Source of the DNA: an uncultured Prevotellaceae bacterium
GTDB lineage: Bacteria; Bacteroidota; Bacteroidia; Bacteroidales; Bacteroidaceae
NCBI GenBank assembly: GCA_900315095.1
Contig: OMXS01000019.1
Location: 1 to 64,000, forward strand
Length of the DNA: 64,000 bases
Direction of reading: 5' to 3'
The notes beneath the pieces were generated by a model, which did not search any database, was not told the origin of the DNA, and worked only from the letters and a program-made list of their open reading frames with translations. The position numbers and the translations under genes are program-made. Positions 1 to 26,874 of this stretch are shown here, in pieces (within the stretch, counting starts at the first letter, position 1; each line of letters begins with the position of its first letter).

Positions 1-33
1 GTGAAAGTCTTAAACTACTTAAAGAAAGTGGCG

Positions 34-684
34 CTATTTTTTCGCTTCGAACGTGATATCCTTGCGGATGGTGCTCAGGTAATTGGGCGTGACGCAGAGG
101 AATGAGGCGATGTCCTGTAAGTTGAGGTGCTCCACGATACCTGGGCAACGCTGCAACAGTAGGTCGTAACGCTCACGGGGTGAGGTGCAGTGAAGGTCAA
201 GGTAGCGCGAACGGAACTGTAAGAGGATATGCTCCGCGATGAGCGCACGCAGTTTCATCGTCTCCATGTCCTGACTGAAGAACTCTTTCAACTGTTCGCC
301 TGTAACCCTTAGCACACGGCTGGGCATCATTGCCTCGATAGTTGTCTGTGACTGACCGCCGTAGAGGAATGTGGGATAGTCAACGGCGAACTCGCCCTCG
401 AACGAGAACCATGTGATATGTTCCTTGACCTTCGGTCAAGCCTCTTTACGCTCGGCCATATCAAGCGAGCTTGATGGCTCTCGCTTAATCGGAGCCTTGT
501 AATCGCTGATGCCATAGTTCACATACTTGAAACATCCCTTGGTGACAAAGGCAAGCCAGCGTGACGGGTCACCCTCACGCTCCAACTGGTCTCCCTTGCG
601 ATAGGTAACTGTCTCGCCCTCACGCTCGCAGAACTCGCGAAGCATCCGCAAGTCAAAACTGTTATTACTGAATTTCTGTTCCAT
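34..684 (-). pseudogene. Crp/Fnr-family regulator, interrupted by an in-frame stop
   Basis: Two pieces in the same frame make one Crp/Fnr-type regulator of about 216 codons. The upstream piece (436-684) has the cyclic-nucleotide-binding-like beta-roll start, with YRKGDQLEREGDPSRWLAFV. The downstream piece (34-435) continues with FSFEGEFAVDYPTFLYGG and ends in a winged helix with LQDIASFLCVTPNYLSTIRK. They are separated by TGA at 436-438, which lies inside a 72-bp insertion flanked by CCTTG repeats at 423-427 and 495-499. Without the insertion the protein reads SDYK-EHITWFSFEGEF, as expected for the family. It is the last gene of the long minus-strand operon, 48 bp after its neighbour. Most likely inactive as a full-length protein. 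A restart at ATG 330 would give only the DNA-binding half. Confidence 0.8.
424..499. repeat. Palindromic insertion element in the Crp/Fnr gene
   Basis: A 72-bp segment interrupts the regulator and is bounded by the 5-bp direct repeat CCTTG (423-427 and 495-499), which looks like a target duplication. It contains two hairpins: CTTGACC/GGTCAAG (424-430 and 434-440, loop TTC) and AAGCGAG/CTCGCTT (463-469 and 480-486). Read on the gene strand it resembles the tandem units in the carboxylesterase gene at 4767-4916: both have GCGAGA, then GCTCGC, then TATG, then AGAGG in the same order and in the same reading frame. Confidence 0.65.
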
Positions 685-732
685 AGTCGGTTCGTTTTAT
701 TTTTCTTTGGCTAGCACATGTTCGTTTCATGG

Positions 733-1278
733 TTAGTAATTATCAAGGATTTCCTTAATACGCTTTTTGCGTTGTTCCTTGCGGTAGCTTTTTCTCCATT
801 TCTTTGGGATAAAGAAATTCAATACTTTCCACAGGTCCAGTTTGACACCCACCTCCAGGTTGGCGGCCGCGAGTTCTGCCTCCGTGTCTTTGGTTTTTAA
901 TAGTCTCATCAGCTTGCTATAGTCACGTTTCTTGCCATGCCCGAAAACCACCACCTCTTTAAGGTTAAGGAGTTTGGAAATCATGTAGACAGTATCTTGC
1001 ACCTCCTCGAGGTTAACTATGCGTGACTCGTAGTTGACATGCGAGAAAACAAGAGTCTGGCAACTGTCGGTTATATAGAATATGCCGAGAGAATCTGTCG
1101 TGGTGGTCCCTTGAGAGCTGACGACATTCGCCCCGGCGACAGGCTGGAGTGTCTCCACGTCGATTACCGAGAGCCGCCGCTGTGCGAACGTGTCAACAGA
1201 ACACACCATCAGAAAAGACATCACGAGCCACATTGTTGCGGCCCATGATGATTTCTGATTATGGCGTGTCGTATTCAT
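733..1278 (-). CDS. Secreted CarboxypepD_reg-like domain protein
   Basis: A 181-residue protein with a signal peptide (residues 1-33, ending DTFAQ) followed by one beta-sandwich of the CarboxypepD_reg-like type, as found at the N-terminus of TonB-dependent receptors. The stretch RRLSVIDVETLQPVAGANVV, then TDSLGIFYI and the FSHVNYESR turn, are typical. There is no plug or barrel after it; the C-terminus is a basic tail (KKWRKSYRKEQRKKR). It starts 4 bp after the TlpA-like gene and so belongs to the ECF operon. Periplasmic or outer-membrane-associated function unknown; it may act as an accessory domain for the barrel encoded upstream (inference). Confidence 0.75.
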   Translation of the reverse strand: MNTTRHNQKSSWAATMWLVMSFLMVCSVDTFAQRRLSVIDVETLQPVAGANVVSSQGTTTTDSLGIFYITDSCQTLVFSHVNYESRIVNLEEVQDTVYMISKLLNLKEVVVFGHGKKRDYSKLMRLLKTKDTEAELAAANLEVGVKLDLWKVLNFFIPKKWRKSYRKEQRKKRIKEILDNY

Positions 1279-1281
1279 AAG

Positions 1282-3285
1282 TTACTTGCTTAATTTCGCG
1301 ATAATCTCCTTGAAGGATTTCATGTCGCTTGTGTGCTCCCAGTGAAGGTCATGGATGTTCCCCTCCTTGTCAATCAGTTTGTAGGTAGGGAAAGCATACA
1401 CCTTCAGGTAATTCTCTATGGCGCTTTGCTGGTCAGCAGGCAGGTTGTAGTGCACGCAGTTTGGTCCTGTGAGGCCGTATTCCTTGATAGTGTTCTTCCA
1501 TGCCTGTTCAGGACTGTTGTTTGCGAGATATAGGTACACGATGTCGTAATCCTTCAGTTGTTCCTTCACGATGTGAGATTCAGACAATTGCTCCTTGCAG
1601 GGAGAGCACCATGTGCCCCAGATGTCCAGATAGACGATGCGCCCTTTATACGGTTCGATGATTTTGCGGAGTATCTGTTCGCCCTCGCTCATGTTCGCCA
1701 CATCTGACGACGGACGAAGACTGGCAGCGCCGGCCAGGTCTTGATTCTGCAAGGCTGCATATTTGTCGTTCAATGTTTTTACATTGTTAAATGCCAGAGG
1801 CAACTGGATTTCCTGTTCTGCACATTCCATCGTGTACGGAGGTAGCGGAGTGCGCGTGGCGTCGATGATTCTCATAAGGTAACATGCCGTATAGATATCG
1901 CGCAGGTTACGGTCGCAGCCAATGGAGTCAATCGTAGTGAGGTTGTTTCGGATGTCGGCGGCGGCCAGTTCTTTATCGAGAGGCTCTCCGATACTTTCAA
2001 ACAGCTTGATGGTCTTGGCAACGATGTCAATGCTTTCAAACTCCTCAATCATCTTGTGAGCCTCTTCATGACTCTTGGCACGGCTCAGCTTGCGGTCCAT
2101 CTCTTGTGACAGGGGAGCGTATTCGTCCAGCAGTCTGGAGTCTTCAGGTGTCAGCGTAATGATGCCCCGCTTCTCTAAGTCACGTACAGATTGCACCACT
2201 CGGTCGCCTGCGCTGAATGGGCGTTTCTCGTTCAACTGGTCGATGTAGTCGTTCATAAACGTCGTGAAGTCGCGATAAAGGGTATATGGCTTCACTCTCT
2301 GCTGCCATAGTTCGCCAACATAGTCCATATATTCCTGTGGCAGTTCGCGTCCAGGCATGTGGAAGCGGGCCTGCATCAACGATTCGCCCTGCCCTGTCAG
2401 ATAATAGTCTGCCAGGTAGTCGATATACCGCTGTGAGAGGTTAGGATGCTGGGCGATGCGCTCTTGCAACTCGGCCATACGTGTTGAGCGGAGGCTGTCT
2501 GTATGCGCTTTAAACCGCATGGCATCTGCCTTGCCTGGTTCCATGACTTCGGTGCGGTCGTTGGCAAAGGCATGGGGAAAGGCCAGGAGTTCGTTCTGCA
2601 CTCTGACGTCGTCGCCCATGAAAAGCCTCTGTCCTGTCTTGAAGTCGCAAAGCAGGAAGTAGGTCTTTCCGGGTTCCATGACACTGCTGAGTTGTAAGCG
2701 TTTCCAGTCGATGAACACCTGCGAAGAGTTTATCAGCGGCATCTTGAGGCAGAAGCGCCCCAGCGAGTCCATCCTGGCATAGAAACCATCTTGTTTTCTG
2801 GTGAAGATATTATTGACGCCAACACCAAACTCCCTGCCGAGTTTCCATGCCTGTTCAGGCATATCCTTCAGCCATCCGATGATGGTCACGCTGTCGCCCA
2901 TCTGGTAGTTGTTGTCAGCAAAACCCTTGCGGAGATCCTTCGTGGGGTAGTCGGGCAAGGCGGGAGTAGTTATGAGACTGCAAATGGCGGGTTTCTTGTT
3001 GCCGATGGCGATGGCGCGTCGTCCCTCCTTCATCTTGCCCACTCTGATAATGGTACCGTTGTTGAGCATCAGCGTATAGGCATCTTTCTTTTCCGTCTGG
3101 CTGACGATGTCCCACACCTTGTTGTCGAAGATGGCATGCTTCTCGGCAAAGCCTATCATCCATTCGCCCGTCGCCTCGTTGCGCCAGTAGGTGTCGGCTA
3201 TAGCCTTATTCTCTGTCCTTGCTTCTTGTGCCTGTCCTGTCATTGAAGTAAGGACGAGCAGCAAGGTGAATAATAGAGTCTTCAT
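1282..3285 (-). CDS. TlpA-like thioredoxin-fold secreted protein, paralogue 1
   Basis: A 667-residue protein with signal peptide MKTLLFTLLLVLTSMTGQAQ. The first roughly 100 residues form a short domain beginning IADTYWRNEATGEW; the middle is a long alpha-rich region. The last 120 residues are a thioredoxin fold with the redox motif WCSPC at 559-563 and a cis-proline at about 633 (AFPTY). Family knowledge: TlpA/ResA-type disulphide reductases act in the periplasm; many Bacteroidota have large versions of unknown substrate. It is one of three paralogues in the window (see 11234-13523 and 13548-15884) but lacks their extra 130-residue N-terminal beta domain. It is 5 bp from the esterase gene upstream, in the ECF operon. 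Confidence 0.85.
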   Translation of the reverse strand: MKTLLFTLLLVLTSMTGQAQEARTENKAIADTYWRNEATGEWMIGFAEKHAIFDNKVWDIVSQTEKKDAYTLMLNNGTIIRVGKMKEGRRAIAIGNKKPAICSLITTPALPDYPTKDLRKGFADNNYQMGDSVTIIGWLKDMPEQAWKLGREFGVGVNNIFTRKQDGFYARMDSLGRFCLKMPLINSSQVFIDWKRLQLSSVMEPGKTYFLLCDFKTGQRLFMGDDVRVQNELLAFPHAFANDRTEVMEPGKADAMRFKAHTDSLRSTRMAELQERIAQHPNLSQRYIDYLADYYLTGQGESLMQARFHMPGRELPQEYMDYVGELWQQRVKPYTLYRDFTTFMNDYIDQLNEKRPFSAGDRVVQSVRDLEKRGIITLTPEDSRLLDEYAPLSQEMDRKLSRAKSHEEAHKMIEEFESIDIVAKTIKLFESIGEPLDKELAAADIRNNLTTIDSIGCDRNLRDIYTACYLMRIIDATRTPLPPYTMECAEQEIQLPLAFNNVKTLNDKYAALQNQDLAGAASLRPSSDVANMSEGEQILRKIIEPYKGRIVYLDIWGTWCSPCKEQLSESHIVKEQLKDYDIVYLYLANNSPEQAWKNTIKEYGLTGPNCVHYNLPADQQSAIENYLKVYAFPTYKLIDKEGNIHDLHWEHTSDMKSFKEIIAKLSK

Positions 3286-3289
3286 ATAG

Positions 3290-5005
3290 CTAATTAGATG
3301 ATTGCAGGTTTATGATATATTTCATGAAACGGTCGATGAGCATGATGCGCTCCTTATTGGGGACCTCGATAAGTGATGCGCCGTTGTTAAACTGCATCAC
3401 GGTGGCCTTGCCCTCTTCAAATACAGGCCATGATGGCAGTCCTTCTCCGTTAGGGTTGCCTCCCGTCTTTGCGAAATTCACCCAATACTGTTGCATGATG
3501 TCGCTTACTTTCTTCTCCTGAGGATATTTCCCGGGCTCTTCGTCAAAGGCACCTTTCAGGTATAGCATGTCATCGGCATGGGCAGCGCCGCGGCGGTTGC
3601 CTTTTGCATATACTGTCCGTTCCGACTTCTGTGCGAGGTATGCCGAATAAACGGGGTTCTTGCCCGTTTTCTTCTGCATGGTGGCCCATTTATAGGCAGA
3701 CCACCCAAAGGAAATGTCGCGTATGAAGTCGCGCATGCTGTAAAGACGTTCCTCGTCGGTAGTGCCAGGATAGTAAGCCTTCAAGCTGTCTGCCCATTCC
3801 CCTGGAAACATGCTAAACTGGCGATTATACTCCTCTGTGCTCACCGAATCATAGTCAACGGCACCTTCGTCGCTGTTGTGCATAATCAGCACTGGCACAT
3901 CATTATATTCGCCTTTCTCGTAGAGATTGTAGATAGGCTCTGGAATCACATAACCATCTACGATAGGCGTGCAGCCATGGAAGTTCACGCCGTTGCCCGT
4001 GAGCTCCTTGGCATCCATCTGGCGCATCTCCTTGATGGATTTCTTGTTCAGTTCACTCATGAACATCAGGCCTATCATCTGTGCCTGTGCCTGGTTTATC
4101 GCACTCATAGGCGAGATGAAAGCTCCGCTCTGACTGATGCAGGCACGGAACAGTCCCTTTGCCAGCGGCGAGGCACACAGGACATGACAGCTCATGGCTC
4201 CTGCCGACTCTCCGAAGATGGTTACCTTAGAAGGGTCGCCGCCAAAGTTCTTTATATTGCGCTGAACCCACTGAAGAGCAAAGATTTGGTCAAGTATGCC
4301 ATAGTTGCCAGAATGTCCCTCGGGCGACTCTTTTGCCAGGTCGCCATGTGCCAGGAATCCCAATGAGCCGGCACGATACTCTATGGAAACAGCGACTACT
4401 CCCTTGCGGGCCAGACTTTGCCACAGGTCGCCGCCATAATGCTCTGTCTGGAAACCGCCGCCATGGATGAACACCATTACTGGCAGGGCCTCGTCGACGG
4501 ACTTGGCTGGCGTGACAACACTAAGGTACAGACAGTCCTCACTCATCATGTCGTATTTCACATAGCTTTTCTCAGGCTGAGGAGGCCATTTGGCCACGTC
4601 CTCTGCTTTCATCACACCCGTCCATGGCTTGGCTGGCTGTGGCGCTTTCCAACGAAGGTCGCCCACAGGGGGAGCGGCATAAGGAATGGCCTTGTACACA
4701 GCAAGGTCTGTCCCTTCGAGAATGCCCTCGACATCGCCTGTCTCAATATGGGTTTTCAACAGCGGTTGAATACCATTCGACCTCTGTCGCGACTCGACAT
4801 AGTTGGAGTAAACTCCACTCTGCTCTCGCTGCTCCATCGGTTGAACTTTGTTCGACCTCTGTCGCGACTCAACATAGTTGATGCGAGCGTCACTCTGTTC
4901 TCGCTGCTCCATCGGTTGAGCCATTGTAAAAACCATGCAAAATAATCCGCAGGCTAAAAAGAATAATCTTCTCTTCATATCGCTTGTCGTTTTATGCTTG
5001 TCCAT
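3290..5005 (-). CDS. Carboxylesterase type B with tandem N-terminal repeat insert
   Basis: A 571-residue alpha/beta hydrolase of the carboxylesterase type B family. It has the oxyanion motif HGGGF (181-185), the nucleophile elbow GESAG with Ser267, the acid motif NSDEG and the histidine region RGAAHADDMLY, so the triad looks complete. A second start at 4978 puts the signal peptide MKRRLFFLACGLFCMVFTMA first and may be the true one. Between the signal peptide and the catalytic domain lie two tandem 25-residue units (30-54 and 55-79), each beginning QPMEQREQS and containing NYVESRQRSN; these are not part of the family fold. It sits in the ECF operon, 13 bp after the barrel gene. Substrate unknown. 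Confidence 0.88.
   Translation of the reverse strand: MDKHKTTSDMKRRLFFLACGLFCMVFTMAQPMEQREQSDARINYVESRQRSNKVQPMEQREQSGVYSNYVESRQRSNGIQPLLKTHIETGDVEGILEGTDLAVYKAIPYAAPPVGDLRWKAPQPAKPWTGVMKAEDVAKWPPQPEKSYVKYDMMSEDCLYLSVVTPAKSVDEALPVMVFIHGGGFQTEHYGGDLWQSLARKGVVAVSIEYRAGSLGFLAHGDLAKESPEGHSGNYGILDQIFALQWVQRNIKNFGGDPSKVTIFGESAGAMSCHVLCASPLAKGLFRACISQSGAFISPMSAINQAQAQMIGLMFMSELNKKSIKEMRQMDAKELTGNGVNFHGCTPIVDGYVIPEPIYNLYEKGEYNDVPVLIMHNSDEGAVDYDSVSTEEYNRQFSMFPGEWADSLKAYYPGTTDEERLYSMRDFIRDISFGWSAYKWATMQKKTGKNPVYSAYLAQKSERTVYAKGNRRGAAHADDMLYLKGAFDEEPGKYPQEKKVSDIMQQYWVNFAKTGGNPNGEGLPSWPVFEEGKATVMQFNNGASLIEVPNKERIMLIDRFMKYIINLQSSN
4767..4916 (-). repeat. Two tandem 75-bp in-frame repeats in the esterase gene
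   Basis: Two adjacent 75-bp units encode residues 30-54 and 55-79 of the esterase. The ends are nearly identical (QPMEQREQS and NYVESRQRSN) while the centres differ (DARI versus GVYS). Each unit contains the palindrome GTCGCGAC, and the second contains GGAGTTTACTCC. The order of short motifs matches the 72-bp insertion in the Crp/Fnr gene, so both look like members of one palindromic element that inserts in coding frames. Confidence 0.7.
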
Positions 5006-5017
5006 TGTCGTGTAGTT

Positions 5018-7309
5018 TTATTCGCTGTCGCCTCCGTTTCCTCCGTTTCCGTTGCTGTCACCGCCTTTCACGTCATCATTGGTGATAGTGCGCTCGGCTT
5101 TCTTCACGCTGGCTCTCAGTTCGCCAATGCGGTAGCTGACACTTATGCCGAATCGTTGTTGGACGCTCTTCGACCACATGTCGGCATGGAAAAAGCTGTC
5201 CTCCATAGTGGAGTTGTATTTCTTGTATTTTTTCAAGAAGTCGGTGGCAGAAAGAGAGATGTTGAGGCGATTTTTCAACAGAGACTTCTGGATGCTCAGG
5301 CTGTAGCTGCTGTAACCGCTGCCCTTGCCTTGAAGGCTTACGCGAGGCGTCAGGGCAAAGATATTAAATGAAAGACGCCAGTCCTTAGGCAGCGTCTGCT
5401 GTGCTCCGCCATAGACAAAAAGGTCCCATCCGTGGTTCCGAAGCGTTCCGCCGTTATCCATATCGGAATAGGAAAGCCGGCCATTCATGTAGATGCGGGT
5501 GTTCCTTGTAGCATTCCAGTTAACGTAGGCGGTCAGGCTTGTTCCTTCGATATGTCCGATATTCTCGTAGGTAGAGTAAAGCACGTCCTTACCCGTTGGG
5601 TTCTTAATGCCTGGAAGTTCTGTGTCGGCAATGAGTCTCGTGACCTGTTCGATGCTGTTACGCGTGAAGCCATAGCGCAGGGCGAGGTTGATGTTGAACT
5701 TCGGTGTGAAATTACTGTAACTAAGGCTGAACGAATGGCTCTTCTCGCTGTCAAGATAGGAGTTTCCCTGATTGATGCTTGTAGGATTAGAGTCGTCGAG
5801 GTAGGGGTTGAGATACCATATTCCAGGACGGTATATTCGCATGTCATAACCCAGTCGCAGGTTTGACATCTGCGTCAGTTTATAGCCGATGCTTACAGAA
5901 GGCACGAAGTCATTGAAATGCTTCTTGAAGTCGTCGCCTCGCCCGAGTTTATACTCCACATCCTGTAAGGTATGCTCATAGCGCATTCCCAGGCGACCGG
6001 AGATTTTCTTCAGTCGCAGTCCGTAGCCGAAATAGGCGGCAAAAATGTCATTACGATGCTTATAGTGTGAAGAGTGGTCTCTGTCAAATTCGTAGTCGCC
6101 GCTGTTATAGGCCGCCTGTTCGTACCTGTCATCCTCCGAAGTGTTGTTGCGCAGTATATATTTCAAGCCGGTCTCCAGCGTGTGTATCTTGCCAAAGGGC
6201 GTGGTGTAGTCCACTTGGAAGGTGTGCTCTGTGGTGTGCTGGTTGCCGTCGTTGTGCTGGTTCTTCAGGCGTTCCAGGAAGCTTTCCCAGCCATCGGCGG
6301 CTTGCATGTCAAGATAATTGGTGTAAGAGTCCGACTTGTCTGGCTCAGTCTCTAATCTATAAGACAGTGTCAGGAGACGTTCCGGCACCGAGAAGCTGCG
6401 CTGATAGTCGATACCGCCATCAATAGAAAAATAGTTGCTCTTTGATGTTCCGGCGGTGCTATAGCGGTATAGCATGCTGTTTGTCAGCGGAGAGGTGGCA
6501 ATGGTGTTCATGTCGCTATTGCTTTTGTTCCCTCCTCCCCAAAGGTCGAAAGTGGCTGTAAGAAGGCGCAGGGTGTCAATCTCATAACTGGCCTCGAATG
6601 TTCCGTACTGGAAACTGCCATGTCCCTTCGACGACCCCTCTGAATTGATATCGGAGGATGAGTCGCTGAAGTTGCCTAAGGTTTTCCTGCTGTTGCCCGA
6701 GTATCCGCGTGGGCTGCGGTTATACGAATAGTTATATCGGGCGCTCATGGTCAGCTTGCCGCTTTTAATGGTGGCATAGGTTCCACCGCCAGCTCCACGG
6801 TTGCTTGCGCTTGCGCTGAATGTGGCTGTATAGCCTTCAATGCCTTGGTTGTGAGTTATGATATTTAGGATGCCGCCCACGCCTTCCGCATCGTATTTCG
6901 GACCAGGGTTGGTGATTACTTCTATCTTCTTAATGCTGTTGGCAGGCATGCTTTTGAGTACCTCCTTGGGATTGTTAGACATCATCTGGTTGGGTTTGTT
7001 GTTCACATATACCTTGAACGAACTGGAACCGTTTACCTGTATGTTGTCCTCGCCGTCGACAGTCACCATAGGCACCTTGCGCAGCATATCTATCACGGAG
7101 TTGGTCTTTGAGTCAGGGTCGCTTTCTATGTCGTAGGTTATCTTGTCAACGTCGGACTTTACGAGTGACTTCTGCTTCACTATCTCCACACCTTGCAGTT
7201 CCAGAGACTTAAAGATACTGTCTGCACGGATGGAGTCGGCCTTGGTTTGAGCAAAAGAGTTGAGCAGAGATAAAACACAAGTGATTAGTACAAAAAAGAC
7301 TCTCTTCAT
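5018..7309 (-). CDS. Outer-membrane beta-barrel, TonB-dependent receptor type
   Basis: A 763-residue protein with signal peptide MKRVFFVLITCVLSLLNSFA. A plug-like region (about 40-150) contains DKITYDIESDPDSKTNSVID, VTVDGEDNIQVNGSSSFKVY and VGGILNIITH. The rest is a series of amphipathic strands as in the OMP_b-brl_3 outer-membrane family. Unlike most relatives it has no CarboxypepD_reg-like domain in front; such a domain is encoded separately at 733-1278 in the same operon. The C-terminus ends in a low-complexity tail rich in G, N and D, so it lacks the usual terminal aromatic residue. Ligand unknown. Spaced 10 bp from the TraB/GumN gene. Confidence 0.85.
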   Translation of the reverse strand: MKRVFFVLITCVLSLLNSFAQTKADSIRADSIFKSLELQGVEIVKQKSLVKSDVDKITYDIESDPDSKTNSVIDMLRKVPMVTVDGEDNIQVNGSSSFKVYVNNKPNQMMSNNPKEVLKSMPANSIKKIEVITNPGPKYDAEGVGGILNIITHNQGIEGYTATFSASASNRGAGGGTYATIKSGKLTMSARYNYSYNRSPRGYSGNSRKTLGNFSDSSSDINSEGSSKGHGSFQYGTFEASYEIDTLRLLTATFDLWGGGNKSNSDMNTIATSPLTNSMLYRYSTAGTSKSNYFSIDGGIDYQRSFSVPERLLTLSYRLETEPDKSDSYTNYLDMQAADGWESFLERLKNQHNDGNQHTTEHTFQVDYTTPFGKIHTLETGLKYILRNNTSEDDRYEQAAYNSGDYEFDRDHSSHYKHRNDIFAAYFGYGLRLKKISGRLGMRYEHTLQDVEYKLGRGDDFKKHFNDFVPSVSIGYKLTQMSNLRLGYDMRIYRPGIWYLNPYLDDSNPTSINQGNSYLDSEKSHSFSLSYSNFTPKFNINLALRYGFTRNSIEQVTRLIADTELPGIKNPTGKDVLYSTYENIGHIEGTSLTAYVNWNATRNTRIYMNGRLSYSDMDNGGTLRNHGWDLFVYGGAQQTLPKDWRLSFNIFALTPRVSLQGKGSGYSSYSLSIQKSLLKNRLNISLSATDFLKKYKKYNSTMEDSFFHADMWSKSVQQRFGISVSYRIGELRASVKKAERTITNDDVKGGDSNGNGGNGGDSE

Positions 7310-24257: not shown

Positions 24258-25253
24258 ATGCGAAACTTGAATGATTTTACAATAAAATCGGTATTGTTGC
24301 GTTATAATTCCGTGTTGAAACGGTTAAACATATTGATTTTCTTGCTCGTCGTGGCTGCTCAGTCGGCTATGGCGCAGTATGATGTGGAGTTCAGTCATTA
24401 CTTCGACATGGAGCCATATTACAACGCTGCTGCCGTGGGCAAGCAAGACAAACTGAACATCGTGGGAGCCTACTCGATGCAGTTCGCTGGCTTCGAGCAT
24501 AACCCTAGGACGATGTTCATCAGCGCCGATGCCCCGTTCATCTTCCTGAACAGTTATCACGGCGCGGGAGTGCAGATACTTAATGACAAGCTGGGATTCT
24601 TCACCCATCAGCGCATTGCGGTGCAGTATGCTCTGAAACGCCCGCTCTTCGGCGGAACGCTGAGCGTGGGAGTGCAGGGAGGTCTGATTCTCGAGGGCTA
24701 CGACGGCTCTGACGTGGTGTTCCCCGACAAGGATGACGACCAGGCATTCTCTAAGTCGGACATCAACGGAAACACTTTCGACCTGGGCGCCGGCATCTAT
24801 TATTCATACGGCAGATGGTACGTGGGAGCCTCTGTTCAGCACATCACAGCGCCCCTCGTAGAACTGGGCGAACTGAACCAGTTGCAGATAGACAGAACGT
24901 ATTATTTGACTGGTGGATACAATATTCGGCTAAGAAATCCGTTTTTAACTATACCGACCAGTGCCATCGTGCGCTATGACGGCACAGCATACCGCGCCGA
25001 CATCACCGCCAGACTGGTGTATAAGAACGAAAACAAGATGCTCTACGGCGGTGTGGGATACAGCCCCACGAATTCTGTGACTGCCTTTGTAGGCGGCAGT
25101 TTCCACGGCATCAATCTCGGATACAGTTACGAGGCGTACACCACGGGCATAGGGCTCGGACATGGCAGTCACGAACTGTTTGTGGGCTATCAGATAGACT
25201 TGAACCTTCAGAAGAAGGGCAGAAACCTGCATAAGAGCGTGAGATACTTGTAG
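24258..25253 (+). CDS. porP: PorP/SprF-family type IX secretion protein
   Basis: A 331-residue outer-membrane beta-barrel protein. The signal peptide core is LNILIFLLVVAAQSAMA, preceded by an unusually long N-region of about 23 residues. The mature start QYDVEFSHYFDMEPYYNAAA is the hallmark of the family, in which a YNPA-like motif follows soon after cleavage; repeated barrel strands such as LSVGVQGGLILEGYDG follow. PorP binds the GldK ring and links the type IX translocon to the outer membrane. Its place directly ahead of gldK-N matches the porPKLMN order known from Porphyromonas gingivalis. Confidence 0.9.
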   Translation: MRNLNDFTIKSVLLRYNSVLKRLNILIFLLVVAAQSAMAQYDVEFSHYFDMEPYYNAAAVGKQDKLNIVGAYSMQFAGFEHNPRTMFISADAPFIFLNSYHGAGVQILNDKLGFFTHQRIAVQYALKRPLFGGTLSVGVQGGLILEGYDGSDVVFPDKDDDQAFSKSDINGNTFDLGAGIYYSYGRWYVGASVQHITAPLVELGELNQLQIDRTYYLTGGYNIRLRNPFLTIPTSAIVRYDGTAYRADITARLVYKNENKMLYGGVGYSPTNSVTAFVGGSFHGINLGYSYEAYTTGIGLGHGSHELFVGYQIDLNLQKKGRNLHKSVRYL

Positions 25254-25290: not shown

Positions 25291-25416
25291 GATGAGGAAG
25301 GATTTTTGAACGTTTTCGTTAAGCCAAGTGAGCAGAGTGGAACTTGTTCCTTCTCTGCCATGGCGAGAAAAAGTCGAATGAAATTCAACGTATAATAAAT
25401 ATAAGAATTGATATAA

Positions 25417-26874
25417 ATGAAAAGGAAGAATATTCTTATCGCTTTTGCCGTTATGGCACTTGTTGCTTTTGCATCGTGCATGAGCAGCAAGAGCAGTTCC
25501 ATTTCCGGCAGAGGCGGCGAAGTGACAGGCATTGGTCATGGTAAAGGGTTCACCGAGCCAACACCTTACGGAATGACGCAGATTCCACGCGGATTCCTGC
25601 ACATGGGAATCGAGAAGCAAGACAGCCTTTGGGGCAAGCAGACGCCAGTGAAGGACATTTCGGTTGACGGATTCTGGATGGACGAGACAGAGGTGACCAA
25701 TTCTGAGTACAAGCAGTTCGTCTATTGGGTGCGCGACTCTATCCTCCGCACACGTCTGGCCGACCCGGCATACGGCGGCGACGAGTCATATCTCATCACC
25801 GAGGACAAGAACGGTGACCCCGTTCCGCCACACCTCAACTGGAAGAAGTCGCTCCCGAGAAAGCCCAACGAGGACGAGCAGCGCGCCTTCGAGAGCCTCT
25901 ATGTGACCAATCCCGTCACAGGAGAGAAACTCCTCGATGCGTCACAGCTCAACTATCGCTACGAGATTTACGACTACACTACGGCAGCGCTGCGCCGCAA
26001 CCGTCTGAACCCCGCCGAGCGTAACCTGAACACCGACGTCACCGTGAATCCCGACGAGGTGGTGATGATTTCAAAGGACACGGCATACATCGACGACGAG
26101 GGAAGGATAGTTAGGGAAACCATCGACCGTCCGCTGTCAGGACCGTGGGACTTCCTCAACACCTACATCGTGAATGTCTATCCCGACACCACATGCTGGG
26201 TGAACGACTTCCAGAACAGCGACAACGAGGTGTACCTGCGCACTTACTTCAGCAGTCCTTCATACAACGACTATCCCGTAGTGGGCGTCACATGGGAGCA
26301 GGCAAACGCCTTCTGTGCATGGCGCACCGAGTATCTGCTGAAAGGACTGGGAGGCGAGGCACGCTACATCCAGCGCTATCGCCTGCCTACTGAGGCAGAG
26401 TGGGAGTATGCTGCACGCGGCAAGGAAGGCAACGAGTTCCCGTGGGAAAGCGAAGACCCGTCGAACAGCCGAGGGTGCTTCAACGCTAACTTCAAGCCCG
26501 ACCGAGGCAACTACACCAAGGACGGTAACCTGATAACGAGCAGGGCGGGCATCTATACCTCCAACTCTAACGGACTTTACGACATGGCGGGCAACGTGGC
26601 AGAATGGACAAGCACCATCTATACCGAGGCAGGAGTGCAGGCGATGAACGACCTTAACCCGCAACTGGAGTACAAGGCAGCCAAGGAAGACCCGTACAAA
26701 CTGAAGAAGAAGAGCGTGCGCGGAGGCTCGTGGAAAGACCCTGAGAGCTACATCCGCTCGGCATGGCGCACATGGGAATACCAGAACCAGCCACGCTCGT
26801 ACATCGGATTCCGCTGTGTACGCTCTCTGGCTAACACTCAAAGTGCTAAACAAAAGAAAGGTAAGAAAAAGTAA
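25417..26874 (+). CDS. gldK: GldK/PorK, type IX secretion lipoprotein
   Basis: A 485-residue lipoprotein: lipobox AFASC after a hydrophobic signal, so Cys21 is probably lipidated. The body is a formylglycine-generating-enzyme-like (FGE-sulfatase) fold with VDGFWMDETEVTNSEYKQFV, RLPTEAEWEYAARG, YDMAGNVAEWTSTIY and VRGGSWKDP, and IGFRCVRS at the end. GldK proteins have lost the enzyme function and form, with GldN, the large ring under the outer membrane of the type IX secretion machine. The C-terminus is lysine-rich (SAKQKKGKKK). It starts 163 bp after the PorP gene and is followed by gldL after 11 bp. Confidence 0.95.
   Translation: MKRKNILIAFAVMALVAFASCMSSKSSSISGRGGEVTGIGHGKGFTEPTPYGMTQIPRGFLHMGIEKQDSLWGKQTPVKDISVDGFWMDETEVTNSEYKQFVYWVRDSILRTRLADPAYGGDESYLITEDKNGDPVPPHLNWKKSLPRKPNEDEQRAFESLYVTNPVTGEKLLDASQLNYRYEIYDYTTAALRRNRLNPAERNLNTDVTVNPDEVVMISKDTAYIDDEGRIVRETIDRPLSGPWDFLNTYIVNVYPDTTCWVNDFQNSDNEVYLRTYFSSPSYNDYPVVGVTWEQANAFCAWRTEYLLKGLGGEARYIQRYRLPTEAEWEYAARGKEGNEFPWESEDPSNSRGCFNANFKPDRGNYTKDGNLITSRAGIYTSNSNGLYDMAGNVAEWTSTIYTEAGVQAMNDLNPQLEYKAAKEDPYKLKKKSVRGGSWKDPESYIRSAWRTWEYQNQPRSYIGFRCVRSLANTQSAKQKKGKKK

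Follow-up and report, generated by a model that had tools for sequence, protein, structure and literature searches.

We analyzed a stretch of 64,000 nucleotides from an uncultured Prevotellaceae bacterium (hereafter, the window) and found that a palindromic segment lying within a regulator gene (positions 425..499, minus strand) is, judging from comparison with its relatives, very probably one member of a family of small, non-autonomous mobile elements, which has spread within Prevotella and, less densely, across the order, entering genes in frame. Our confidence in the family and in its insertions is high, and that in the mechanism of movement is low.

The Window Copy and the Regulator Gene

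The sequence-only reading had described an in-frame, 72-bp palindromic insert in a Crp/Fnr regulator, and such an insert is indeed present at that place. The full copy at 425..499 covers model positions 1-77 of 77, its net inserted unit measures 72 nt and is flanked on both sides by an NAA edge, and its fold covaries. In the covariance model search (cmsearch) it scored 86.5 bits (E 8.4e-18), the copy itself being among the 28 rows from which the model was built. The N-terminal part of the regulator, a cyclic-nucleotide-binding fold of the Crp/Fnr type, occupies positions 500..684 on the minus strand, with the start codon at 684; the assignment is based on relatives and on a Pfam search of L041, a relative without the interruption (cNMP_binding, E 9.2e-10). 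NCBIfam gave zero matches for the regulator relative, and Pfam gave zero matches when the two pieces of the window regulator were searched alone. Past the element, the rest of the reading frame (34..424, minus strand) starts with EHITWFSFEGEF, the same as in relatives.

Read in the regulator frame, the unit encodes YKAPIKREPSSSLDMAERKEA and then reaches an in-frame TGA (436..438, minus strand), which probably terminates the regulator at residue 82; the gene is therefore probably inactive. The stop had been reported before, and it is there at 438-436; what does not carry over to the family is the stop itself, which is a trait of the window copy, the usual family frame being open in 35 of 41 in-gene copies, and the copy at the same site in another genome of the genus (G007) having no stop. 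Similarly, the CCTTG direct repeat said to flank the insert was confirmed by direct reading at its first edge (423..427) and its second edge (495..499), but the edges that recur family-wide are a left-hand NAA and, usually, a right-hand CAA. The repeat is longer at the window site because the subfamily begins with AAGG, while the empty sites of relatives read CAAGG; from this comparison, CAAGG appears to be the site that the window copy entered.

To look at this site in relatives, we searched 121 genomes of the genus with the 61 residues that precede the element, and 39 of them had a match to this N-terminal part of the regulator. Thirty regulator loci were then fetched and read at the element site. 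The element is missing in 22, where a GISD-like upstream end joins HITWF-like letters directly, so that most of the orthologous regulators read lack the extra 24 codons; relatives do have intact copies of the regulator gene. Three loci are filled, namely the window's own, that of G007, and that of G083, in which the sequence past the element is not the regulator's. Two contigs each hold part of the G007 regulator, and their overlap of 99 identical bases includes flank on both sides of the copy. Among the remaining loci, two (L052 from G116 and L062 from G101) carry an 11-residue insert at the element site, which resembles both element ends with the middle lost and is perhaps a remnant, one (L039, from G051) shows a 14-residue tandem duplication there, and two were unreadable. 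In a regulator tree built on the 183 upstream nucleotides, the filled copies do not form one clade, two changes being needed (likewise with the starred branches), and therefore either re-entry at one site or gene exchange must be assumed.

Other Copies in the Window and in Its Genome

The window holds three further copies. Two of them lie adjacent and in frame in a carboxylesterase gene (3290-5005) on the minus strand, whose COesterase domain spans residues 86-544. The copy at 4841..4918 (cmsearch E 5.5e-6) directly follows the putative signal peptide of the esterase, as judged by eye, and the second, at 4766..4838, was found with E 0.0021 (4766-4834); model R2, whose alignment contains this copy, gave it E 1.1e-7. 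As the first two E-values come from a model built without the esterase units, the motifs that had been noticed as shared between these units and the regulator insert do reflect membership in one family. The third copy, missed in the sequence-only reading, is intergenic (25308..25388, plus strand; 36.5 bits and E 3.3e-6 from a model that did not include it) and sits between the plus-strand open frames 24258-25253 and 25417-26874.

In the window's genome as a whole, a plain DNA search recovered the window copy plus three weak matches, one of which (C58) was later confirmed as a member by the model, and a motif pattern gave three matches, one being an esterase unit. Since the stems vary, a plain DNA search is too weak and a covariance model is needed. 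The model search, in which 150 of 976 candidates were scored, returned at least 26 matches at E <= 1, 24 of these at E <= 0.01; the list misses the copy at 25308-25388 and is therefore incomplete, so that genome counts are lower bounds. In one of the loci from this genome (L135:1501-1580), the element closely precedes a long open frame, for which an ATG within the element's terminal hairpin may be the start codon.

Fold, Edges and Relation to Y1 Transposases

The family was modelled from an alignment of 28 copies as a three-helix covariance model. Helix P1 (7 bp) encloses an internal loop and hairpin P2, and is followed by a single base, hairpin P3, and AA. The internal loop is conserved (approximately GATTAAGCGAGA on the 5' side and CGAGCGTGA on the 3' side), whereas P2 and P3 are variable hairpins. 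In the window copy, consensus structure and pair counts place the P1 5' arm at 491..497, pairing with the 3' arm at 439..445, the central hairpin P2, with tetraloop CTCG, at 455..478, and the terminal hairpin P3 at 427..437, all on the minus strand. Folded alone, the segment 415-510 (plus strand) gives only a modest signal (z = -2.14). The convincing evidence for the hairpins is the covariation over relatives, which is far above controls: 95.1% of cells are paired, versus 27-46% after sliding the partners by 1-3 columns, both sides have changed in 17 of 20 pairs, and none of 500 shuffles scored as high. Copies from other genera of the order behaved alike (94.8% paired versus 29-47% slid), in an alignment biased towards the model, to which it had been fitted.

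Edges and lengths were read on 184 distinct copies placed in the fetched genus loci, a set that favours the window subfamily, as the searches behind it were seeded with the window copy. AA is found at the left edge in 180 copies and at the right edge in 174, positions that are also strong in the model. Match length is mostly 72-81 bp, with two copies reaching 112 and 120, and net length is mostly 72-78 bp, being a multiple of three in 127 copies. Moreover, tandem copies 2-4 bases apart, some of them in frame, were observed in L031:1425-1560, L072, L130, L227 and at 4766-4918 of the window; arrays may have grown after insertion.

These properties call for comparison with REP-type elements moved by a Y1 transposase (RAYT/IS200-type), the repeats of which are described as 20-40 bp long with a GTAG or CGTC tag, CGTC repeats having been reported from Bacteroidetes in the part of the source cited (PMC3733652). 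As REP elements use these enzymes, we tested whether a Y1 transposase of the same genomes could move the element. Both are small palindromes in many copies, and the present element also has a strand-asymmetric structure, a terminal hairpin, and insertion beside a short fixed motif; in addition, a Y1 transposase was matched in 64 of the 121 genomes of the genus, and 7 of 50 Y1 loci scanned hold one copy, at a distance from the Y1 frame of 139-406 bases in four cases and of 700-1929 bases in the rest. However, in this sample of loci copies on both sides of the Y1 gene were found in 0 of 50, and a copy was present in 10 of 55 control loci (relatives of ArgRS, PurF and OxyR), which means that there is no excess near Y1 genes. 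Presence of the two is also uncoupled: G016 and G002 have three Y1 matches each and no element match, whereas element matches number 32 in G007 and 38 in G032, neither of which has a Y1 match. Furthermore, the element differs in size, and its edges are NAA and CAA, with no GTAG or CGTC at the foot of P1 (judged by eye). Altogether, we regard mobilization by these Y1 transposases as unlikely, although it is the alternative that survives best.

Insertion Sites in Conserved Genes

In three further conserved genes, filled and empty sites could be compared, and they support the mobile-element reading. ArgRS relatives were matched in 105 of 121 genomes; only 3-5 bases separate the flanks in all 29 other loci read, as opposed to 78 in the filled gene of G119. 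An OxyR-like regulator, filled in G096, is empty in 14/14 others (3 bases between flanks), and PurF, filled in G033, reads empty in 13/13 others (6 bases, at an ambiguous alignment boundary). The gap is exactly one NAA in 27 of 29 ArgRS and 14 of 14 OxyR empty loci, while the filled ArgRS and OxyR genes have NAA at the left edge and CAA at the right. AA or NAA stands on both sides of filled sites and once in empty ones; this may reflect either a target-site duplication or an element that itself ends in AA.

Further open frames that host the element match an aldo/keto reductase, a methyltransferase, an AcrB-type pump, a glutamate synthase, a CTP synthase and, outside the genus, a ZIP transporter. 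In four cases a Pfam domain spans the insert: the aldo/keto reductase (domain residues 19-336, element 80-106), the AcrB-type pump (19-896, element 489-514), a lysyltransferase (23-312, element 176-202) and a C_GCAxxG_C_C protein (19-150, element 72-98). Alignments to solved structures confirmed the families of the PurF, OxyR, CTP synthase and ArgRS hosts, but did not make the insert cleanly visible, as the PurF and ArgRS matches begin at or after the insert end, the best OxyR match stops within the insert, and the alignment of CTP synthase is unclear around it. Likewise, the NCBIfam profile match of PurF starts past the insert, and that of ArgRS starts at the insert end.

Some host frames look alike. 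Two copies from other genera of the order (L142:1501-1578 and L150:1501-1584) stand just before VPNLRF... in two open frames, a continuation that resembles the beginning of type I restriction specificity subunits (HsdS). Three loci (L177, L229 and L257) apparently encode the same kind of ATPase/HTH protein, by Pfam for L177 only, with the element at a similar site; in L257 it is apparently preceded by a second, partial unit. In G090, two similar open frames (L010 and L085) carry near-identical copies at the same KKKRK site, which suggests gene duplication after insertion.

Reading-Frame Statistics

The 184 copies were then sorted by two criteria: that the flanks on either side are open on the same strand, and that their frames join when the net unit is taken out. 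These classes are based on open frames and not on annotation. Both flanks are open in 63 copies; the frames join in 41 of them, of which some are not true in-gene copies, given that about one third of the 63 would join by chance, and do not join in 22. Net length is divisible by three in 38 of the 41 joined copies (the exceptions being three), versus 77 of 121 without open flanks; leaving out the 22 non-joining copies, Fisher's test gives p=2.6e-4, a value which is inexact and serves as a guide only, as the copies are related by descent. Regarding orientation, 31 joined copies run on the same strand as their host and 10 on the opposite one, and 7 of 41, the window copy included, contain an internal stop. 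Among the 32 joined copies that are open and of suitable length, 25 share one phase, in which a codon is split after AA. The usual frame reads approximately KAAIKREQSQACLSSAEREQARPKVK (consensus of 26 joined copies of length 78, two of them with a stop). This frame is open in 35/41 joined copies and in 87/143 others, so that openness is largely the element's own property, and is higher inside genes.

It could be argued that the family is a structured regulatory RNA motif or terminator, mostly intergenic, that falls inside open frames by chance. Strong RNA-like covariation would fit such a role, as would the 143 of 184 copies that are outside joined frames and the window copy that lies between two open frames. 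Nevertheless, the clean in-frame inserts in ArgRS, OxyR and PurF, which are empty in relatives, and the bias in length and phase are not what such a motif would leave, and Rfam returned zero matches for window positions 1-6000 plus 9 loci at gathering scores, and zero up to E = 5 for one 120-base copy. For the in-gene copies, this explanation is already contradicted, and for the family as a whole we consider it very improbable.

Slightly less probable still is that the encoded peptide represents a useful module, such as a tag or linker, spread by selection rather than as a selfish element. The frequently open peptide frame, in joined copies and others alike, and the position of some insertions near the N-terminus speak for a module, but the hosts are unrelated, their relatives live without the insert, many copies do not lie in joined frames, and 10 of the 41 that do are read on their reverse strand.

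Distribution of the Family

That the segment occurs well beyond the window, a point on which the sequence-only reading depended, was evident at every level searched within the order. A search by DNA only gave matches at E <= 0.01 in 58 of 101 genomes of the genus. Model R1 gave them, at the same threshold, in 110 of 121, and 51 have at least 20 matches, in a search that scored at most 39 candidates per genome, so that counts saturate. Model R2, with 16 candidates per genome, found a match at E <= 0.001 in 58 of 295 genomes of the order, representing 43 of 184 genera. A phylum-wide sample, less sensitive at 12 candidates per genome, gave matches at E <= 1e-4 in 3 of 395 genomes (the window's own, another from its family and a third from its class). 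Named genomes, when scanned with a pattern, yielded at least 120 stretches. Hosts among the 80 matches listed include Prevotella, Prevotellaceae, Bacteroidaceae, Bacteroides and Bacteroidales, together with Rikenellaceae, Paludibacteraceae and Candidatus Cryptobacteroides. In the same class, a one-contig genome of another family (G681) has a single good match (L473:1501-1576, 65.6 bits), possibly a transfer.

Phage and plasmid collections gave zero matches. Seven matching stretches from IMG/VR were inspected for open frames, and three contigs classed as viral (L475, L480 and L481) hold in-frame copies within open frames; these contigs may be prophages or host DNA.

Although many of the genomes are fragmented and several copies lie at contig ends, an assembly or binning artefact, with repeats misjoined into genes, is the least credible of the alternatives, as copies also occur in few-contig genomes (29 matches in G117, with 1 contig, and 33 in G010, with 3 contigs) and strain-titled records (Prevotella sp. 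tc2-28, Prevotellaceae bacterium HUN156 and MN60), the 99-base contig overlap with both flanks bridges the G007 regulator copy, and misassembly cannot yield covariation.

Comparison with Known Repeat Families

Palindromic elements of Rickettsia (RPE) were reportedly described by Ogata et al. in 2000 and 2002. Coding palindromes are described from Rickettsia, Wolbachia and Methanocaldococcus jannaschii in the sections of the literature cited here, according to which such palindromes occur both between genes and in frame in unrelated conserved genes, and one product, guanylate kinase, is active (PMC2229807, PMC2996958, PMC3767692, PMC10969869). The Prevotella family appears to behave in the same manner, being intergenic and also in frame within unrelated conserved protein genes, a likeness of behaviour that does not imply kinship. 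It had been suggested on first reading, and is now backed by the empty sites in three further conserved genes and by the length and frame statistics. The differences are several. RPE are 100-150 bp long, as compared with mostly 75-81 bp here, and the Prevotella family is distinguished by its NAA/CAA edges and by a fold of three helices that is asymmetric and contains a conserved internal loop. The hosts among the 80 matches listed include neither Rickettsia nor Wolbachia, and the family shows empty sites between species of one genus, whereas in Rickettsia every ortholog is reported, in the portion of the source cited, to have the insert at the same locus (PMC3767692).

Other small repeats resemble the family less closely. 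Porphyromonas gingivalis belongs to the same order as the window organism. Its BrickBuilt MITE is reported as strictly intergenic (PMC10969869), and coding insertions of the kind observed for the Prevotella element are not described in the relevant part of a report on P. gingivalis MITEs (PMC5771137). Like these MITEs, the Prevotella element is a small non-autonomous repeat, but it is without terminal inverted repeats, as the P1 3' arm is internal and P3 follows it, and no parent transposon was found for it in 2.06 Mb of fetched loci. For ERIC/RU-1 of enterobacteria, in-frame fusions in protein genes are reported in the passages cited (PMC2229807); these repeats differ in length (about 127 bp), in hosts and probably in sequence. 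Our literature search did not find a precedent for coding palindromes in Bacteroidota, which is weak evidence, as its coverage of subscription papers was thin.

Proposed Mode of Insertion

Returning to the reading of the segment as a mobile element, a single strand would fold into P1, the conserved internal loop, the variable hairpins P2 and P3, and then AA. As the stems vary freely and yet the pairing is kept, a putative mobilizing enzyme probably recognizes the fold together with the internal loop. Comparison of filled and empty sites shows entry at an AA dinucleotide, after which the left edge reads NAA and the right one usually CAA. Where insertion splits a lysine codon (AA|R), it would add approximately 25 residues of the usual frame given above; because the length is mostly a multiple of three and the sense frame usually open, the insert would leave the gene unbroken. 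Selection would remove copies that break needed genes, and the insert peptides would be translated within host proteins. An autonomous form, with the two halves of the element apart, was not found in the 2.06 Mb of fetched loci (overlaps included), the two candidates inspected both being tandem or broken copies.

Beyond this, we tentatively raise the possibility, to which we give less than even weight, that the family represents a new kind of mobile element, in which the folded strand and internal loop would be the recognition unit, the ends would be read at AA, the mover would not be a Y1 enzyme, and lengths and sense frame would have been shaped for life in genes as translated protein, core enzymes included. 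If true, adaptation of a selfish element to coding sequence would have arisen here independently.

Overall, a coding-palindrome family occurs in gut and rumen bacteria, some of them strain-titled, with hosts that include aminoacyl-tRNA synthetase and purine synthesis genes. Since filled and empty sites coexist within one genus and copies are many, movement of the element, tolerance of the insert by proteins, and its possible role in protein evolution become testable. For annotation, the REQS..SAEREQARPKVK motif in Prevotella proteins should be taken as an insertion, and not as a domain.
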